NCBI GenBank assembly: GCA_023515795.1
Contig: JALGPX010000025.1
Coordinates: 32,094 to 64,621, forward strand
Length of the DNA stretch: 32,528 bases
Origin: Amoeboaphelidium occidentale
Taxonomy: Eukaryota; Aphelidiomycota; Aphelidea
Direction: 5' to 3'
Below the pieces are notes generated by a model. The model searched no databases. It was not told the origin of the DNA and saw nothing but the letters and a program-made list of their open reading frames with translations. Numbering within the stretch: position 1 is the first letter of the stretch; the number at the start of each line of letters is the position of its first letter. This document shows positions 258-29,191 of this stretch, in pieces. The translations under genes and the position numbers were made by a program.

Positions 258-295
258 TTTTATTTGAACTAATCCTGTAGCGAAGGGCCAGTTAT
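258..295 (+). repeat. solo right-end tail of the Fanzor-like repeat family
   Basis: This 38-base stretch matches the last 38 bases of the full repeat copy at 25758-26102 and, over its last 33 bases, those of the copy at 21975-22313. It can fold as a short imperfect hairpin: AACT at its start pairs with AGTT near its end, and TCCT with AGGG inside. The homology stops at GTTAT; the following bases differ in all three copies. The tail ends six bases before the stop codon of the minus-strand gene starting at 302. Read on the minus strand it carries AATAAA (259-264), so it may serve as that gene's polyadenylation signal. Confidence 0.8.
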
Positions 296-20667: not shown

Positions 20668-21937
20668 ATGCCTGTACAACCTCAGCAAATGTCTGAAAAC
20701 ACTTTTCTTTTCACTTCCGAGTCTGTCGGTGAAGGCCACCCAGGTACGTCTACTTTTCATGTTAAGTTCCTTTTAAATTAACCTATGCAATAGACAAAAT
20801 CTGCGACCAAGTTTCCGATGCAATTTTGGATGCTTGCTTAAAGCAAGACAAGTTCTCAAAGGTCGCTTGTGAGACCGCTACCAAGACTGGTATGGTTATG
20901 GTTTTGGGCGAAATCACCACTCAAGCTCAACTTGACTATCAAAAGATCATCCGTGGCGTTATCAAGGACATTGGTTACGATGACTCCAACAAGGGTACGC
21001 TTCAGCCTTTGTATTTAAATGCTAATTTCGTGTTTTAGGTTTCGATTACAAGACTTGCAACGTTTTGGTTGCCATCGAACAGCAATCACCTGATATTGCA
21101 CAGGGTTTGGTTCAGGTTTCTGACAAGGTTGAAGACACTGGTGCTGGTGACCAAGGTATCATGTTTGGTTATGCTACCGATGAGACCCCTGAACTTATGC
21201 CTTTGACAATCATGTTGGCACACAAGTTGAACCAAAAGATGACTGAATTGCGTAAGTCTGGTGTTTTGGGTTGGTTGCGTCCTGATAGCAAGACTCAAGT
21301 CACTGTTGAGTACAAGAACGAAAAGGGTGCCATGATTCCTGTCCGTGTTCACACTATTGTTATTTCAACTCAGCACTCCGAGGAAATTGACAATGATGCT
21401 ATCCGTAAGGCATTGAGAGAACAAGTCATTAAGGCAGTTATCCCAGCAAACTTACTTGATGACAAGACTGTCTACCATTTGCAGCCTTCTGGTCGTTTCA
21501 TCATTGGTGGTCCTCAAGGTGATGCTGGTGTCACCGGTCGTAAGATCATTGTTGATACTTATGGAGGTTGGGGTGCTCACGGTGGTGGTGCTTTCTCTGG
21601 AAAAGATTGGTCCAAGGTCGACAGATCTGCTGCTTATGCTGCTCGTTGGGTCGCAAAATCTTTGGTTGCGGCTAAGCTTGCTAAGCGTTGTTTGGTTCAG
21701 TTGTCTTATGCTATCGGTGTTGCTGAGCCATTGTCCATCTATGTTGATACCTACGGTACTGGAACCAAATCCAATGCTGAATTATTGGCTATCATCAAGA
21801 AGAACTTTGACTTGAGACCTGGTATTATTGTCAGAGATTTGAACATGCAGCAGGCAATTTACCAAAAGACTGCTTCTTACGGTCACTTTGGACGCTCTGA
21901 ATTCCCATGGGAACAGCCAAAGAAATTGGAACTTTAA
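20668..21937 (+). CDS. S-adenosylmethionine synthetase
   Basis: Exons 20668-20743, 20794-20994 and 21039-21937, with introns of 50 and 44 bp; 391 aa, the family's usual length. It makes S-adenosylmethionine from ATP and methionine in the cytosol. Splicing restores the GEGHPDKICDQ motif (catalytic His and Mg site) and [23 protein letters not shown] (ATP-binding) and [17 protein letters not shown] (phosphate/triphosphate loop) are intact. Codon use is strongly biased to GGT, GCT and AAG, as expected for high expression. It ends 37 bases before repeat copy B. Confidence 0.97.
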
Positions 21938-21974
21938 TTGAATAAACGGGAGGTAGTGGTGGTATTTTATAAAT

Positions 21975-22313
21975 GCAGAGCTCCAGCTCAAGCGTCTATT
22001 TGCTTTGCGAGCTGGAGCACGAATGCGCTTTCTTAAAAGGAGTATGTGTAGCTCGCTTTGAATCCCGCAATGTTATGCTCACTCCGTTGACATGAGTTGA
22101 AACAAAGTTTTAGGCGGTTAAAGTCTGTAATTTAGATTGCTTATTAGTTTGGAACAGGGACATAAACGCTGCACGGAATATCAGGCAGGTGATTATTCTT
22201 GCATTTTACTTGCACAGTGTTCGCCAGCGTAACCCAGAAATTGAGCAGTTCGTGTAACGCCCTCAAAGTAATATATATTGTTTGAACTAATCCTGTAGCG
22301 AAGGGCCAGTTAT
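21975..22313 (+). mobile_element. Fanzor-derived non-autonomous element, copy B
   Basis: A 339-base unit that is repeated in the same orientation at 25758-26102, with most bases matching and small indels. It begins GCAGAGCTCCAGCTC and forms a perfect 10-bp hairpin (GCTCCAGCTC with GAGCTGGAGC, 19-base loop). The centre keeps the end of a TnpB/Fanzor-like reading frame (listed separately). It ends in the conserved tail AACTAATCCTGTAGCGAAGG plus GCCAGTTAT. The right end abuts the TAG stop codon of the minus-strand gene at 22314 without a single spare base. Both this copy and copy C have TTAT just outside the left end and at the right end; a TTAT target preference is possible. Confidence 0.75.
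22114..22257 (+). pseudogene. remnant C-terminus of Fanzor/TnpB-like nuclease (copy B)
   Basis: The frame reads AVKVCNLDCLLVWNRDINAA, RNIRQVIILAF and ends at TAA 22255-22257. C-x3-C followed by W-N-R-D-x-N-A-A-x-N-I is the second half of the OrfB zinc ribbon and the final catalytic Asp region of TnpB and eukaryotic Fanzor proteins. The first half of the ribbon is frameshifted here. The stop codon is 56 bases before the element's right end, the place where the guide RNA scaffold lies in this class. Confidence 0.65.
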
Positions 22314-25300
22314 CTATTCTTCGTCTGCACTGACATCCAGACTCTTTTCCAATTCCTTGATGATTTTTGCTTTTGTTTGGTCCTTCAGAGCTCTGCTGTC
22401 ATTTAACTCAACAATTAGTTGCCTTATATTTTGGAAACGGATCAAGTAATCAAAAGCCCATTTGATCATGCATTGTTCTTCTGATGAAAATGCCATAAAT
22501 TTTCTAATCTTATTCTGGACATATCGTTGTCCTTCTTTGTAAATAATTCTCTTGCTGATCGCAGTTAGGATGATTTTCTTCAAATATTCAGGTGGAATCT
22601 TCTCTAGTACACAACGCAACACACCATTTTCGGCCTGATCAATTTGGTCTTTGATACAAGGAAGTACAAACTCCAAGAGCAAAGTCTTGTAAAGTTGAAC
22701 ATAAGAGGACGAAGGATCATTGTAAGTAAAGTTAGAGTCAATAAAGAAATTAGTTGGACGGTCTTGATCCTTGCGAGACAAATCTATCATCAGCTTCTGA
22801 TGCATATTATCCAAGAACAAATTACAGAATTTATCCAACGACATGAAGTCTTTCATGTTTTGCATACACAATGAAAAGTCATATGAGAATTTAGACAATC
22901 CATTTACAATTACGAAATCTTTCAAAATCAAATCCACTTCAATTTTCAAGAAAAACTCTAGCCTTCCAAGAGTTTCTTCAATGAAATTCGGTGTTCTTTC
23001 AGAGCTCTCTTTCAAAACAAATTTATGAAACATCTTGTATGATTTAAATGATTCAAACGGTTTCATAGTAGTCAACGAATTAATGAGTAAAATGTTCGCT
23101 GGAAAGTCTGCTTCAAGATGTGACGTTGGATGGTAAACATCCATTAAAACAATAATCCCAGCTTTTCCGTATAATGGTTCGATCCTTGTGGTCGAGTTGT
23201 TAATCGAGACACAAATATCTGTAGCAGAATCTCTCAGTTCGTCGACATCAAAAGGTACTCCCTTCTTGCTATTTTGAGTTATTTCTTTTGCCATTGCGGC
23301 TATACTAGCTCCTTTGAATGAGTACTTAAAATGTTTTCCATTTGAAAAGACATAAAGCGTTTTAATTGCCACATGCTTCTCAAGCTGAGCGACTCTAAGC
23401 AAGATTGCGTTCAAACACTTATTCAAATCTGAACCAGCATAGAAAATATCAACGCTTAATTTAGATTGACTTGAAGAAGGAGCAATCATATGCATCTTGT
23501 TAACAAGCATGAACAAGCAAGTGTAAATAGTCTGTGAAACCACCAAAGTTTTTTCTTCCTCCGTCAAGAGAGAGTCTAGAGCCAGATTCTTATTGTTGAT
23601 TTCATTAATTATCAGCTGATCTATACAACTTGCCTTTTCGATTGACTTCAAGTCGTCATCTAATACGACAGCTCCACAAGAACCATTCTCCGGAATGTCT
23701 CTGTTCAAAAGATGATCAAACAAACAATAACCCGAACTTTCATTAAACAAATTGATTACAGTGGACTTTTCAAAGTATTTGACATTGATTCTAGTCAGGA
23801 AATCTTTGTTCTTAAAAGCATAGAACCCAACAAGACCAGAACCATAGAGGTAATACAATGAAGAAGAGGATTTCATGGCAAGCTTCATCCCATCCAATTC
23901 GATTACTAGAATAGTTCTCTTTTCATTTTTGATATTTATCGAAAGAATCGCCTGAGATTGTAACAACCTTAACCATTCTCCAAATAACATCGCCACTTCC
24001 TTTTCTTCAACAAGTCTCAAGTGCCCCATTTTGAATTTTAACAGCGCTTCATCTAAAACATAGCTTTTCTCACCAGACATGGTAATTGCAACGATTTCTT
24101 TTGCTGCTTCTGGGTATCTCTCCAAGACTGTTTTAACAATTAAATCCTTTAAATTTGTGTTCCCTGCTGCAATATACAAGCACATGTTCACCATACCCAT
24201 GAAAACTTCATAAAATACTAAACTACTGTTGCTACTGCCATCAGCATGACCGTGATAGAATTCTTTCAAGACTTCAGCATCAACAAAACAAATTCTACTC
24301 AATTCATCACAGAAAGCGACTGTATCAATATGACCTTTCATACAAGAAATGTCAATAGTGAAGATAATGTAGTAAATATTCGGAAAGATCACTTTATCAA
24401 TCCGAGCCTTCTCGATATTCAGTCGCTGCTTCATGGAAACGTATTGAATTATTCTTGCGATAAACTCATTAACATTACTATTATTGTTCAATTCATCAAT
24501 AGGAATCATAATTGTGGCCTTGTAGAAGGAAATATTCGATGCTCCAGGATCGCTCTCAGAATTAGCACCGTTTCCATTAGCTGCCGCACTCACAGTCAAT
24601 CGATCTTCAAACTCAAACATCATATCATCAACATCAGATTCACCATAATCTTTCTTGCTATAATCGCCATCCTGTTGTTCCATTATGACAACACGTACAG
24701 TTGTATCCTTTTGAAAAGAATAAAGCATATCGTGATGTAACTTGATATCCTTTGGAGAAGTATTGAGAACATAATCAATATCACAAGCATCCAAATACTC
24801 TTGCAAAGACGATGATGATATCACAGCCGTATGGTCTTCAGTACTGATACTGCTGCTACTATTTCTTTTGTTACAAATGATATCAATCAGCTCTTTTTGT
24901 TTCATTTGTCTGACGCCTTGCTTAAACTCTACAACATCCTTTCGTATTTCCTGATTACTTTTCAAGGAACCCTGTTCATATGAATGATGATGATGATGGT
25001 CCAAAGATTCAAACTCGAACACGTCAATAACCAAATCTCCGCGCAAAGAACTGTAAATCATAGCTTCTCTAAGAACCATTCGTTTCATCTTTAGATACGG
25101 CAGAATTACAGTCTGCACCACTTCATACAGCAATCCAACATATGCGCTACCATCTCTCAGAATGGTACACTTTAAACCATCATTACTGAACATTATGATC
25201 TCCTGATGATGACGATGTTGCTGCTGCTGACTAGAAGATGAAGAATCCACAACCTGATTATCCTGTTGTGGCTTTGTTGCAGTTGTCGTAGTTGCAATTC

Positions 25301-25634
25301 TTGTCATTGTATGGCTTGATTGCTTGGATATCAACTTCAAAGAGATCAGAGCAGTTAAATGTTGCAGCTTGGTTTGTTCATCCAAAGATTTATGATACGA
25401 CAGTGGCAAATTATTATTCCACCATTTCAGTACTTTTCTTGAAGTTTGTTCTTGTTGCTGTTGTAGTAGGAGAAGCGTTGTTTTATCAGCACCACACACA
25501 GTATCATCAATCGCAGTGTCAAAATTCGTTGCAGACAGCTTCTCCGGAGATGTAGCGTAGAATGGTTTAGTCTCCAGTAATGGCAGGGGCTGCAAAGATC
25601 TTGAGATATTATTATTATTATTCATTCGACTCAT
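22314..25634 (-). CDS. large protein of unknown family, low-complexity N-terminus
   Basis: 1,106 aa from the ATG at 25634 (MSRMNNNNNISRS); the frame also extends upstream to an ATG at 25736 inside a CCAT-repeat tract. Residues 1-200 contain runs of Asn, Gln, Ser, Thr and, further on, His (HHHHH). The remaining ~900 residues look folded and alternate strands and helices. Parts such as NGSCGAVVLDDDL, KLSVDIFYAGSDLNKCL and FKGASIAAMAKEI faintly recall the HSPA12/Hsp70-like ATPase pattern, but the glycine-rich phosphate loops are not convincing, so I leave it unassigned. The gene is bracketed by direct repeat copies, its stop touching copy B. Confidence 0.7.
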   Translation of the reverse strand: MSRMNNNNNISRSLQPLPLLETKPFYATSPEKLSATNFDTAIDDTVCGADKTTLLLLQQQQEQTSRKVLKWWNNNLPLSYHKSLDEQTKLQHLTALISLKLISKQSSHTMTRIATTTTATKPQQDNQVVDSSSSSQQQQHRHHQEIIMFSNDGLKCTILRDGSAYVGLLYEVVQTVILPYLKMKRMVLREAMIYSSLRGDLVIDVFEFESLDHHHHHSYEQGSLKSNQEIRKDVVEFKQGVRQMKQKELIDIICNKRNSSSSISTEDHTAVISSSSLQEYLDACDIDYVLNTSPKDIKLHHDMLYSFQKDTTVRVVIMEQQDGDYSKKDYGESDVDDMMFEFEDRLTVSAAANGNGANSESDPGASNISFYKATIMIPIDELNNNSNVNEFIARIIQYVSMKQRLNIEKARIDKVIFPNIYYIIFTIDISCMKGHIDTVAFCDELSRICFVDAEVLKEFYHGHADGSSNSSLVFYEVFMGMVNMCLYIAAGNTNLKDLIVKTVLERYPEAAKEIVAITMSGEKSYVLDEALLKFKMGHLRLVEEKEVAMLFGEWLRLLQSQAILSINIKNEKRTILVIELDGMKLAMKSSSSLYYLYGSGLVGFYAFKNKDFLTRINVKYFEKSTVINLFNESSGYCLFDHLLNRDIPENGSCGAVVLDDDLKSIEKASCIDQLIINEINNKNLALDSLLTEEEKTLVVSQTIYTCLFMLVNKMHMIAPSSSQSKLSVDIFYAGSDLNKCLNAILLRVAQLEKHVAIKTLYVFSNGKHFKYSFKGASIAAMAKEITQNSKKGVPFDVDELRDSATDICVSINNSTTRIEPLYGKAGIIVLMDVYHPTSHLEADFPANILLINSLTTMKPFESFKSYKMFHKFVLKESSERTPNFIEETLGRLEFFLKIEVDLILKDFVIVNGLSKFSYDFSLCMQNMKDFMSLDKFCNLFLDNMHQKLMIDLSRKDQDRPTNFFIDSNFTYNDPSSSYVQLYKTLLLEFVLPCIKDQIDQAENGVLRCVLEKIPPEYLKKIILTAISKRIIYKEGQRYVQNKIRKFMAFSSEEQCMIKWAFDYLIRFQNIRQLIVELNDSRALKDQTKAKIIKELEKSLDVSADEE

Positions 25635-25757
25635 TGAAAAAGATATTTGGCTCGAAATAGGGAAATTCACGCAGTCGCAATTTGATTCATCGATCAATCG
25701 ATTCTCACTTGTTTCACGTATACGCAATCCATCCATCCATCCATTCACATTTATCGC

Positions 25758-26102
25758 GCAGAGCTCCAGCTCAAGCGTCTACATGCTGCGAGCTGGAGTG
25801 CGAATGCGCTTTCTTAAAGGGGGTATATCTAGCTCGCTCTGAACCCTGCAATTTATGTTCATTCAGTTTACATGAGTTGAAACAGACAAAGTTTTGGGCG
25901 GTTAAAGTCTGTAATTTAGATTGCTTAACTGTTTGGAACAGGGACATTAACGCTGCACGAAATATCAGACAGGTGATTATTCTCGCATATTTACTTGTAC
26001 AGTCTCCACCAGCGTAGCCGAGAAATCGTGCGATTCGTGTAACGCTCTTCTCAGTAAGATTTGGTTTTATTTGAACTAATCCTGTAGCGAAGGGCCAGTT
26101 AT
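25758..26102 (+). mobile_element. Fanzor-derived non-autonomous element, copy C
   Basis: 345 bases, directly repeated relative to copy B. The left hairpin (CTCCAGCTC with GAGCTGGAG) has one arm end mutated and a 17-base loop. The reading-frame remnant here keeps all four zinc-ribbon cysteines. The last 38 bases equal the solo tail at 258-295. The right end lies 24 bases before the stop codon of the minus-strand Nup93-like gene, and AATAAA on that strand (26066-26071) could end its transcript. Its left end lies in the region upstream of the large unknown gene, so the element may also affect that promoter. Confidence 0.75.
25799..26017 (+). pseudogene. remnant Fanzor/TnpB-like C-terminal zinc ribbon (copy C)
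   Basis: The frame reads ECAFLKGVYLARSEPCNLCS, then KFWAVKVCNLDCLTVWNRDI and NAARNIRQV, to TAG at 26015-26017. Cysteine codons at 25847, 25856, 25910 and 25922 give C-x2-C-x17-C-x3-C, then W-N-R-D-I-N-A-A-R-N-I. That is the zinc ribbon plus terminal RuvC Asp of TnpB/Fanzor nucleases. The RuvC I and II regions and the rest of the protein are absent, so it is inactive. Orientation and position at the 3' side of the element match full Fanzor transposons. Confidence 0.7.
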
Positions 26103-26126: not shown

Positions 26127-28542
26127 TCACTCCATCAATGAATCTTCTACAGCTGCAATCAATCTGAAAGTATTCTGTGATATTCTGACATGTCTACTGA
26201 CAGCACCAACATAAACGGACACCAGTCTTGACAACTGCGCCGCCCCAACAGACCTGAACAATTAAAAACTACAATTATAGATAAACTTACCACTTTCTGC
26301 CTCTGTAGCACAAGAGACTGACACTCAACAAAAATTGTTCCAATTGCATCAGTACTAAATCATTCAACTTTCTCAATTGCAACAACTTTCCATTGATTGC
26401 ACCCAAATCTGCACCATCTGGTAGCAACAGAGTCTTTTTCAGCGCATTCAAACATGAAAAGTAACCATCAGCATTATTATAATCAACTAAAAATCTTGAC
26501 AATTCCATATAATACTCACACAATCTCAACAGTGTATTCAAAGTCCTGTAAGAAGAAGTACCAGAAATCTGACGGTAAATGACCAATTTATCGGAGTAAT
26601 ACTTTTCAACTTGTGTAGCTTCTTCATAAACAGCCAGTAGGGATTCAGAAGAGGTTGTACCATAATTTTGATTGAACTGCTGTGGCTGCGGCTGCTGCTG
26701 CTGATCTACTTGCAATGACTGCTCCAATACCAAATCATACTTCAACAAACCACCACCACCACCACCACCACTCGAAAAAGTCTCACTCAATCGTTTACAA
26801 TACAGATCCAATACTAATTCGTACTTTTGACACAAATTAAACAATAGAATAGAAGATCGTAAATCCTTGACTCTTTGTGCAGCAACTTGTAGGACTTTAT
26901 CCAAATACTCTTGTTCAGAATGGATTAGAAGGATAGGAGACAAATACAAATCCAATAAACCCTTCTCTCTGTAAATCACTGCATTCCCTTTAGATTCTGC
27001 CAAATAACCATAAATCAATTCAATAGTAGAAGGATAAGCAACAGTATAATCAATAATACCATTAAGCGCAAAGTCTCGAACAGCGTCATTAGAAGGATTA
27101 CAAGTTAGAGCCAATACTAAATAATAGTATACAACATACTCATATGAATCATATGAATACAATGTACTCTTGATGAACCTATCAACATATTGAAACTCCT
27201 GAGGTATAGCTGATGATGATGACCCTTCTTTATCATTTAAATTCTCAATCGTACCATCAATACAAGAGCACAAGTACAAGTGAACAACATATGAAAACAT
27301 TCTTCCATCATCTATGGAAAAGTAATACTGAAACAATTCCTTGAATAATTCCCTTCTATCAACCAACGATAGTACTAACCAAAACCTCTCATCCTTTTCT
27401 CCTTTCAAAGCGATAAATCTATCAGCATACTCTTTACCCACACTCAATCCATTAATCTTCAGCAACAACCATAATTCATCTTCCCATCCAATATTACCAG
27501 ACAACATGTTCTCTTTTACTTGCAGTGACAACTTGAATTCTGCTCCTACCTTTAGAGACAAAACAGAATATACCAAATACTTGTAAACATCCCCAGAAAG
27601 ATATTCACCATTTGGATAATACAATCTGTAACGTGAATCACTAGAAGGTCGCTGCAGTAATGTAATCAAATCTTCTGATTGTGTCTTTAGTAAATACTTT
27701 TCATACTTACACAATAACTGCAATGCATCCCTTAGTAATCCTGATCTTAGTAGATAAAAGACACAAAAGTACAGAGCAAATCCATCACATACTTCCACAC
27801 CACCACCACCACCACCGCTACCATTAGAAGATTGCTGTTGAATGTAATGAACTGATGCTAAACGTAACTGCTGAAATGTATACTTTTTCCTAAATTCTTC
27901 TTCCAAATACTCCAAAGGATTCTTGAAACACAAAGATGCACTCAAAGAAGGCAATAATTTACAAGCAGCTGCATTAGACAATTCTTTGGTATACTTTTGA
28001 TTTCCCTGTAATTTCTTCATTCTAATGTAATTCAATGGAATAGATTTGATGATTGGAGTAAACTTTTTTAAATCTTCACCAAAAGAGGTTGATGGTTGTA
28101 AGTGAGTAGTACTAGTCGTAGTAGTAGTAGTAGTAGTAGTAGTAGAAGTAGTATCCATTATGACGTCATTGGTATAATTCATCTTACCACCACCACTGCC
28201 ACCAGAACCACTCCCTTCATTACCATTAAACAACTTTAAGGAATCCTTCTGTAAATCTCTTCTTATAGATTCATATACTCTCTTCTTTAAAGTATTCATT
28301 CTCTTTACTCTGTTATTCTCCATATCAATTAGAGTAGTAGTAGTAGTAGTAGTAGTTGTTGTTGTTGTTGTTGTCTTTTTAACTCTGTCATCCTTTCTTC
28401 TATCCTTTGTAGAAGTAACAGAAGTCAGAGGAGGAGCAGTAAATGGAATGCCTAATTCATTGTGTAGTTTCTCCAAGAACTCAATTGACTGTTTCTTCAA
28501 CTGCGCAGGATTTCTAATTAAGAAAGTGGAAGTGTGAGTCAT
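26127..28542 (-). CDS. nucleoporin Nup93 / Nic96
   Basis: Exons (minus strand) 28542-26291 and 26253-26127, with a 37-bp intron; 792 aa from the ATG at 28542 (MTHTSTFLIRNPAQLKK). The alpha-solenoid matches Nup93/Nic96 in order: KSIPLNYIRMKKL, DGFALYFCVFYLLRSGLLRD, WEDELWLLLKINGL, YEYVVYYYLVLAL, AESKGNAVIYREKGLLDL, and SILLFNLCQKYELVLDLYCK. Nup93/Nic96 is a core inner-ring scaffold of the nuclear pore. Runs of Thr, Gly and Gln, encoded by trinucleotide repeats, interrupt the N-terminal half. The 3' end lies 24 bases from element copy C. The assignment rests on recalled family patterns. Confidence 0.75.
28116..28155. repeat. (GTA)n trinucleotide tract encoding polythreonine in Nup93-like gene
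   Basis: A GTA/TAG run reads ACT/ACA codons on the minus strand, giving a Thr run at about residues 130-145. A second tract (GTAGTAGTA then GTTGTTGTT, 28333-28373) encodes another Thr run at about residue 60. Length variation stays in frame. Confidence 0.9.
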
Positions 28543-28582
28543 TTTCAAGAAGAAATGGAAAATTTTGATTGCATTGTTTCTA

Positions 28583-29191
28583 TTATTTTTTAACAGATCC
28601 TCCAGATTGTTGTTGTTGTTGCAGTGACGTAACCAAAGAATTCAATCCTTCTTCCAAATCTTTTAATACTTCTGCCTTTAATAATCCTCCTGCTCCTGCT
28701 CCTGCTCCTTCTGCTGAATCCTTACTTGATACATCATGAAGAGGATTCTTTACAACTCTGTCGATAAAACACTTGTAAATCTGATCCAGGATTTTATAGT
28801 AATATGATTCTTGAGGAGGAGTTATGGGTGCAGTTATTAGAACAAATTGTATGTTGGTGGCTGTCCTTAGAGAGAATAGACTGTAGTGATTTGTAGTATA
28901 AAATAATTTGTTTAAAGATTCTCTAAAAGTTTAACAACCCTGCAAAGAGATTTCTTACTGCTTTTTGGTTTGGAGGTTCTTTATGATGGTCTGCTCCAAA
29001 GAATATAATAATCCATAAACTAATTTAGATTGTTCCTCCTCAGAAATATTCTTCTTCTTTTTTATTGTTATTGTTGTTGTTGTTGTTGTTGTAGAAGTAG
29101 AAGTAAAGGAAGAAGAAGAAGAAGAGTAAAATTCTTTTGTGTAGATGCATTTGCATTTTCTGTTGAAGATGTAGATAGAGTGGATGGACAT
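28583..29191 (-). CDS. BET5: TRAPP complex subunit TRAPPC1 / Bet5
   Basis: Exons (minus strand) 29191-28959 and 28922-28583, with a 36-bp intron; 190 aa. The longin-fold start MSIHSIYIFNRKCKCIYTKEF and the later EEQSKLVYGLLYSL, YTTNHYSLFSLRTATNIQFV and FIDRVVKNPLHD match TRAPPC1/Bet5, a core subunit of the Rab1/Ypt1 exchange and tethering complex in ER-Golgi traffic. A Ser/Thr/Lys insert of about 35 residues, from trinucleotide repeats, separates the first two strands from the rest. The C-terminus has AGAGAG and QQQQQ runs not found in the usual ~145-aa family members. The stop codon is 40 bases before the start of the Nup93-like gene on the same strand. Confidence 0.88.
29061..29125. repeat. 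trinucleotide tracts inside Bet5 gene
   Basis: A TTG/TTA run (29061-29093) and an AGA/GAA run (29107-29125) encode adjacent Thr and Ser runs in the insert of the Bet5 protein. A further TTG run at 29201-29219 lies just upstream of the start codon, where it gives a CAA repeat in the 5' UTR. Confidence 0.9.

Follow-up and report, generated by a model that had tools for sequence, protein, structure and literature searches.

We analysed a window of 32,528 nucleotides from the aphelid Amoeboaphelidium occidentale (contig C166:32094-64621 of an 11.3-Mb assembly in 204 contigs; positions below count from its first letter), which carries two copies of a repeat of about 340 bp. In its origin and anatomy the repeat is probably a non-autonomous derivative of a Fanzor1 element, similar to a miniature inverted-repeat transposable element (MITE); Fanzor proteins are eukaryotic and related to CRISPR nucleases. 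An internal deletion would have left three parts in place: the left end, the final coding stretch, which specifies a zinc ribbon, and the 3' end. The zinc ribbon, the tail and the right end are common to the repeat and to a Fanzor1-type gene in the same genome; the repeat forms a family of copies, lies at a TTTAT target, and has a decayed reading frame. Copy A (21971-22313, plus strand) measures 337 bp from AGAGCT to GTTAT and was delimited by alignment with copy B and the other complete copies described below, copy B (25755-26102, plus strand) measures 343 bp and was delimited by alignment with copy A, and both belong to a short class. An earlier reading of the letters alone, here called the sequence-only reading, had proposed a repeat of this size, and the second copy, dozens of relatives in the genome and reversed controls without a single match bear it out.

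The Fanzor origin proposed in that reading is supported as well. At locus C185, a Fanzor1-type frame of 327 aa, truncated at its 5' side, leads into the zinc ribbon, tail and right end known from the repeat; the frame finishes with ...KLCSFCLHELKQTKFWAVKVCNSDCLTVWNRDINAARNIRHVFLDLNANGGKRQVIMLAYLLVQSPPA-stop and is followed by the tail. The C185 protein matches Pfam Cas12f1-like_TNB (E 9.4e-9), and when it was compared by sequence with proteins of solved structure, only SpuFz1 (E 0.016) and GtFz1 (E 0.098) were found at E <= 0.1. Its segments ..VVSLDPGRKS.. and ..NEHNTSKLCSFC.. align with SpuFz1, while ..NRDINAARN.. was assigned by motif; by these alignments, C185 appears to have the RuvC Asp and Glu and the C-terminal Asp of Fanzor1 beside the same right end. 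Most of the short copies listed are 74-91% identical to the C-terminus of C185, two are at 61 and 69%, copy B is at 91% and copy A is not on the list. We found 13 protein relatives of C185, including a 442-aa protein of A. protococcarum that is 48% identical. The locus is without the N-terminal part of the gene and adjoins another Fanzor gene of opposite direction. The left end of the repeat, for its part, runs into a longer 5' region in at least nine places (40 of 67 candidates scored); C110 and C145, where this is the case, have 460 bp in common at 95% identity. The right end with the coding half at C185, and the left end with the longer 5' region at other loci, are never found together, and the four left-end loci that we read hold no Fanzor frame of the C185 group. 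We also considered whether the left ends in C119 and C145 are part of another Fanzor family and rejected this, since the left segments are shared separately, over ~210 bp, and those genes share among themselves.

The family extends across the genome. A search with the repeat DNA gave at least 81 matches (40 of 62 candidates scored). Patterns for the right and the left end matched at 60 and 73 places, respectively, with at most 3 mismatches and with reversed controls at zero, and a longer left pattern including TTTAT matched at 61 places, 31 of them exactly, again with a control at zero. With the right-end pattern at up to 4 mismatches we extracted 33 complete copies free of N, whose lengths from AGAGCT to GTTAT fall into four classes: 15 copies at 455-467 bp, two at 440-441 bp, nine at 371-382 bp and seven at 327-346 bp. 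Their mean pairwise identity is 90%. Many copies that keep both ends and miss the interior, as these 33 do, are what is expected of deletion derivatives of the kind of MITEs or palindrome-associated transposable elements (PATEs). The 33 copies place the left end at TTTAT followed by CGCGCAGAGCTCC... and the right end at ...GGGCCAGTTAT followed by T. The five bases ahead of CGCGC are T, T, T, A and T in 31, 31, 28, 30 and 31 copies, respectively. GTTAT is identical in all 33, which were chosen with the right-end pattern, and the base after it is T in 31 copies, C in one (copy A) and N in one; outside this set, a copy in C168 ends with GTTAC and one in C177 with GTTTT. This fits insertion just 3' of TTTAT, which therefore is a candidate Fanzor target-adjacent motif. 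The ends may also reflect a simple 4-bp target duplication of TTAT, for which the empty site would be the same. Terminal inverted repeats as in a classical MITE were looked for in copy B, which has none, its pairing being confined to the left hairpin and internal pairs.

The two window copies have a mean column identity of 88% in an alignment that includes short flanks, and are 85% (copy A) and 96% (copy B) identical to the majority sequence. TTTAT flanks both on the left, at 21966-21970 and 25750-25754 (plus strand); in copy A, six bases rather than five separate it from AGAGCT. The left-end hairpin of copy A (21980-22018, plus strand; arms GCTCCAGCTC at 21980-21989 and GAGCTGGAGC at 22009-22018) is kept across copies and folds with z -2.64, equalled by 4 of 200 shuffles; that of copy B (25764-25798, plus strand; arms CTCCAGCTC and GAGCTGGAG) was recovered by a repeat search. 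Next comes the zinc-ribbon remnant, which in copy A (22076-22182, plus strand) is broken by stops and one frameshift, corresponds to the C-terminus of the C185 frame and matches the zinc-ribbon profile at E 0.07 only. Like the left hairpin, the WNRDINAARNI motif that the sequence-only reading had noticed is indeed present, encoded at 22150-22182. In copy B its codons (25934-25966, plus strand) lie within an open frame (25682-26017) that matches Cas12f1-like_TNB at E 0.011, under the family cut-off. Thus, NRDINAARN, the zinc-ribbon motif with the C-terminal catalytic Asp, is encoded in both copies, with both profile scores below the cut-off. The stop codon of copy A is where it had been placed, at 22255-22257 and 56 bases ahead of the right end, but it is not the Fanzor stop: the longer copies end with ...HVFLDLNANEGKRPLAFSRKNRA-stop, whereas in the short class this stop has been deleted and the frame continues into the tail. 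The tail itself (22186-22313 in copy A, from the alignment of the 33 copies, and 25970-26102 in copy B, both plus strand) is highly conserved, as claimed, but not distinctly structured, with a fold z of 0.05 in copy A and -0.88 in copy B, where a terminal stem of GTAACGCTCTTC (26039-26050) with GAAGGGCCAGTTAT (26089-26102) is predicted. A comparison of the window with Rfam gave no match at gathering thresholds.

The picture changes in the long class (455-467 bp, 15 of the 33 copies), in which the stretch from the zinc-ribbon codons to the right end measures ~347 nt, compared to 233 and 224 nt in the window copies, where about a third of it has been lost. We folded this stretch in 12 of the 33 copies. 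All six long-class copies tested fold strongly in sense (z -4.2 to -6.5, with none of 40 shuffles as good) and less so in antisense (-2.0 to +0.3). Two copies of the 371-382 class gave z -2.0 and -1.1, and four of the short class -2.0, -1.8 (copy B), -0.1 (copy A) and +0.8. Within the most strongly folding part lies a long hairpin, in which the NAARNI codons pair with bases around the old stop codon and which is mostly lost from the window copies. Structure is strongest in the zinc ribbon with the start of the 3' region (mean z -5.7 in 17 copies), which we had initially used as a folding control. In these 17 copies the post-stop region averages z -2.7 in sense and -0.5 in antisense, and in the other 16 the tail averages z -0.9; column-shuffled consensus folds gave -1.9 for the 33 tails and -2.8 for the 17 post-stop regions. 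Moreover, in the 15 long copies we separated variants that occur at least twice from singletons. The former occupy 11 of the 238 paired columns and 18 of the 109 unpaired ones, the latter 37 and 12, respectively (Fisher p 0.0016; p 0.0016-0.016 over the five structures tried). The long-class fold and the shared variants that avoid its pairs suggest an RNA scaffold reaching into the old coding sequence, and we take them as evidence of moderate weight for a fold that had a role during the spread of the elements, after which the copies drifted.

The variants within the zinc-ribbon codons bear on why these codons were kept. Counted as distinct variants over the 33 copies, 23 are synonymous, 37 nonsynonymous and 7 stops, close to the neutral fractions of 0.28, 0.67 and 0.05, and therefore no protein constraint is seen after insertion; the singletons comprise 11 synonymous, 25 nonsynonymous and 7 stop variants. 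The retention of codons that are not protected as protein calls for a different explanation, for which the RNA fold is a candidate. We therefore propose that the zinc-ribbon codons are retained as the 5' part of a structured RNA of ~350 nt that would end at the right end. This is where the guide-RNA scaffold of a Fanzor would be expected, the flanking host DNA serving as guide and TTTAT as target-adjacent motif; in Fanzors already studied, the guide RNA may overlap the end of the gene, according to those parts of PMC10432273 that describe it. We regard the chances that the stretch from zinc ribbon to right end is such a scaffold as about even. The sequence-only reading had assigned this role to the tail and proposed that short elements carry the scaffold. 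The latter idea finds support in the sense folds and variant pattern of the long class but holds poorly for the window copies, whose fold is near chance. Having lost about a third of the stretch, these copies, of the shortest class, are probably inert.

Fanzor genes elsewhere offered a comparison. The C185 frame, which is without the same post-zinc-ribbon stretch as the 371-382 class, folds in an ordinary manner along the gene: over 17 windows, the synonymous-shuffle z reaches its minimum of -2.0 in the last but one and otherwise ranges from -1.2 to +1.5. Folding the 3' region of C183, a related gene, gave z -1.0. Of other Fanzor families, for which 15 of 30 loci were tested, some (for example L031, L033 and L040) have low sense folds close to the stop and others do not. 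A helix of 11 bp between the NAARNI codons and post-stop bases in C154, of a second Fanzor family, was rejected, because 37 of 500 shuffles equal it.

A number of results weigh against a Fanzor1 derivative with a guide-RNA scaffold. A complete element, with an intact Fanzor gene between its two ends, was looked for in the genome and not found, in an assembly broken at repeats; the sequence-only reading had named its absence as a possible refutation. No Y1_Tnp match for a Y1 transposase occurs in the genome at E <= 0.1 (the control matched in 6 of 14 genomes), and of a linked serine recombinase of the IS607 type we found no sign, the one Resolvase match (C172:89432-89881) being on a contig for which no end of the family is listed. 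The window copies fold poorly. The compensatory changes expected of a conserved structure are absent from the tail (last 133 bases), at 0 of 40 pairs, and paired columns stand at 96.2% versus 96.1% in shuffles; of the variants in paired columns, 19 of 26 transitions keep the pair, hardly above the 16.5 expected. Run over all 33 copies, the shared-variant test, which like its cut-offs was picked after the fold had been seen, returns p 0.40 for variants in 2+ copies and p 0.022 for those in 4+ copies. Split within the 15 copies, it gives p 0.015 for the coding part and 0.09 for the non-coding part alone, so that the past of the source elements as coding sequence may play a part. Finally, zinc-ribbon variants found in at least four copies lean synonymous (7 synonymous, 4 nonsynonymous), as expected if the sources were coding; the source elements may thus have been coding, the copies not being protected as protein.

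Part of this evidence is just what a plain dead MITE would leave. Such an element would have the same Fanzor origin, its 3' region would have been kept for transposase-binding DNA and the ends, and its short copies would never have made a guide RNA. The missing covariation in the tail, the near-expected number of pair-keeping changes and the near-chance folds of the window copies all agree with it, and internally deleted non-autonomous Fanzor1 families are described in the relevant sections of PMC3627910. However, 17 of the 33 complete copies have also kept the post-stop region, which is beyond the ends alone, and the long copies fold much better in sense than in antisense, which is unexpected for DNA hairpins. 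We hold the dead MITE to be a serious possibility that falls somewhat short of an even chance. Further reaching is the idea that long-class elements are stand-alone mobile guide-RNA genes. They would consist of two ends and a ~350-nt scaffold of former zinc-ribbon codons, and would gain a new guide from the host DNA after GTTAT at each insertion; a Fanzor made elsewhere in the genome would recut the empty TTTAT site with the help of their RNA. We propose this tentatively and think it rather unlikely.

On a Fanzor1 derivative, some enzyme inserting 3' of TTTAT would have moved the copies in trans. The zinc-ribbon (TnpB/Fanzor) profile matches 142 places in the genome at E <= 1, short copies included, some in frames longer than 600 aa, and it is therefore plausible that Fanzor proteins encoded in the genome could act in trans. 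As for the motor, one model is MCi-5 of Mucor, whose Fanzor1 elements, as presented in the pertinent passages of PMC3627910, are flanked by ATTTAT, have no terminal inverted repeats and in some cases carry a Harbinger-type transposase. The direct repeat TTTAT...GTTAT, the absence of terminal inverted repeats and the two places in the genome with a Harbinger-type DDE_Tnp_4 are in line with it. By their coordinates, however, neither place is enclosed by two ends of the family, the nearest copy (C145:41496) starting ~2.3 kb off. TTAT is by eye absent on the left in 5 and on the right in 0 of the 33 copies, a small difference that speaks against the model; outside this set, C168 and C177 have variant right ends. 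We regard the model as doubtful. Still less probable, in our estimate, is a Helitron2-type motor as in the Chlamydomonas Fanzor elements CRe-1,2,3 and their Helitron relatives, which according to the same source have a T-rich target and a 5' hairpin. It would account for the 5' terminal hairpin, for the T-rich motif immediately 5' of the insertion and for the fixed T behind it. In the portions of PMC3627910 concerned, Helitron-1N1_CRe inserts between TTTT and T/C without target duplication, and CRe copies with complete 5' ends show none; most CRe-1 and CRe-2 insertions, in contrast, do have target duplications. Moreover, an asymmetric terminal inverted repeat linking the ends was looked for in copy B only and not found. 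The Helitron_like_N profile and the DUF3504 profile of Crypton tyrosine recombinases gave no match in the genome, and their controls were silent too.

A conserved small zinc-ribbon protein as the product of the short elements is very improbable: many copies do have an open frame of ~100 aa over the zinc ribbon, but 7 distinct stop variants and several frameshifts occur among the 33 copies, frame ends vary between length classes, the copy-weighted synonymous excess (76 of 161) fits descent from coding sources, and the near-neutral fractions of distinct variants led us to reject a conserved peptide.

Non-autonomous Fanzor1 families (CRe, in the Helitron2 group) and MCi-5 with its ATTTAT flanks were described in 2013 by Bao and Jurka (PMC3627910). 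In the sections that treat them, CRe-1,2,3 and MCi-5 resemble the aphelid repeat in their Fanzor1 coding end and T-rich target (TTTT, and ATTTAT in MCi-5), and the CRe families, called non-autonomous, also in their internal deletions and 5'-end hairpin. Measured against these accounts, the aphelid repeat is much shorter (~340-460 bp), has TTTAT followed by T as its target and shows no terminal inverted repeats; a Harbinger-type transposase, reported there for three of five MCi-5 elements, was not found inside the aphelid elements. For viral Fanzor1 elements, those of SfAV, the relevant passages of PMC10711439 predict a guide-RNA scaffold that includes the target duplication. By analogy, the predicted terminal stem of GTAAC with the last GTTAT would place GTTAT within the scaffold here. 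Unlike the aphelid elements, those of SfAV have terminal inverted repeats, and the aphelid RNA is a prediction from DNA. The target-adjacent motifs of SpuFz1 and GtFz1 are given as CATA and TTAAN in the corresponding part of PMC10432273, and C185 matches parts of the RuvC/zinc-ribbon half of these proteins, although the matches are weak, at the E values given above. PATEs of Haloquadratum, as far as the portions of PMC3119063 on them extend, are archaeal rather than eukaryotic but comparable in that some derive from IS605-type (TnpB) elements by core deletion; they have near-terminal palindromes, lack terminal inverted repeats and target duplications, and far outnumber the transposons, and neither a retained portion of tnpB nor a guide RNA is mentioned for them there. 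Our literature search, which excluded most subscription journals, brought up no paper describing miniature Fanzors from an aphelid.

Several further observations concern the window and the genome. A third scrap of the repeat, at 258-295 (plus strand), consists of the right end only, with 38-41 bp identical to the right end of many copies, including one or a few flanking bases. Its start coincides with a TTTTAT inside the tail, and it may have arisen when the DNA between the flanking TTTAT and the internal one was deleted. Copy A starts 33 bases past the end of frame 21065-21937, which we take to be S-adenosylmethionine-synthetase-like, and its right end abuts the stop codon of a minus-strand frame (22314-25748). 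Runs of TAG/TTG trinucleotide repeats occupy 28095-29125, in part within frame 26287-28548. Other Fanzor/TnpB families are found at L042, L043, L051-L053, L055 and L031-L037, the zinc ribbon of the last group giving the impression of being more like that of prokaryotic TnpB. At L092 (C119:27900-32700), a long frame starting MGVKGFSAFAKKH..., presumably resembling an XPG/FEN1-type nuclease, adjoins a codirectional Fanzor gene, which belongs to another family. Tails, heads or flanks are repeated around a single N in C7, C11, C31, C59, C75, C103, C126, C168 and C173, which are assembly joins. Tandem tails (a head with two or three tails behind it that have one right flank in common) were considered as guide arrays and rejected, the repeated parts being split by a single N in nine regions; 41 of the 45 N runs in the extracted DNA have length 1. 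We read the tandem tails as unmerged contig ends, and such duplicates could mislead copy counts. Finally, C12:37716-41096 and C112:15358-18736 hold clearly different copies with different left flanks and a near-identical right flank of ~880 bp, which we assume to be the end of an acetyl-CoA-carboxylase-like frame. The shared stretch is 1260 bp at 97%. Per 100 bp, the flank is ~97-100% and the element 79-93% identical, its first block including 20 left-flank bases; a simple transposition carrying its flank was rejected, because the flank is far more alike than the element.

This aphelid offers a compact natural test bed for the spread of Fanzors, since one small genome combines the 142 zinc-ribbon profile places with dozens of miniatures that retain different amounts of the 3' region. 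If the proposed scaffold is true, an element of a eukaryote can lose the nuclease and retain nothing but its ends and a guide RNA, and one Fanzor group, in an early fungal relative, would have its scaffold, guide start and target-adjacent motif defined. If the long-class elements are mobile guide-RNA genes, recutting of the empty TTTAT site by a Fanzor would help the short elements to persist.
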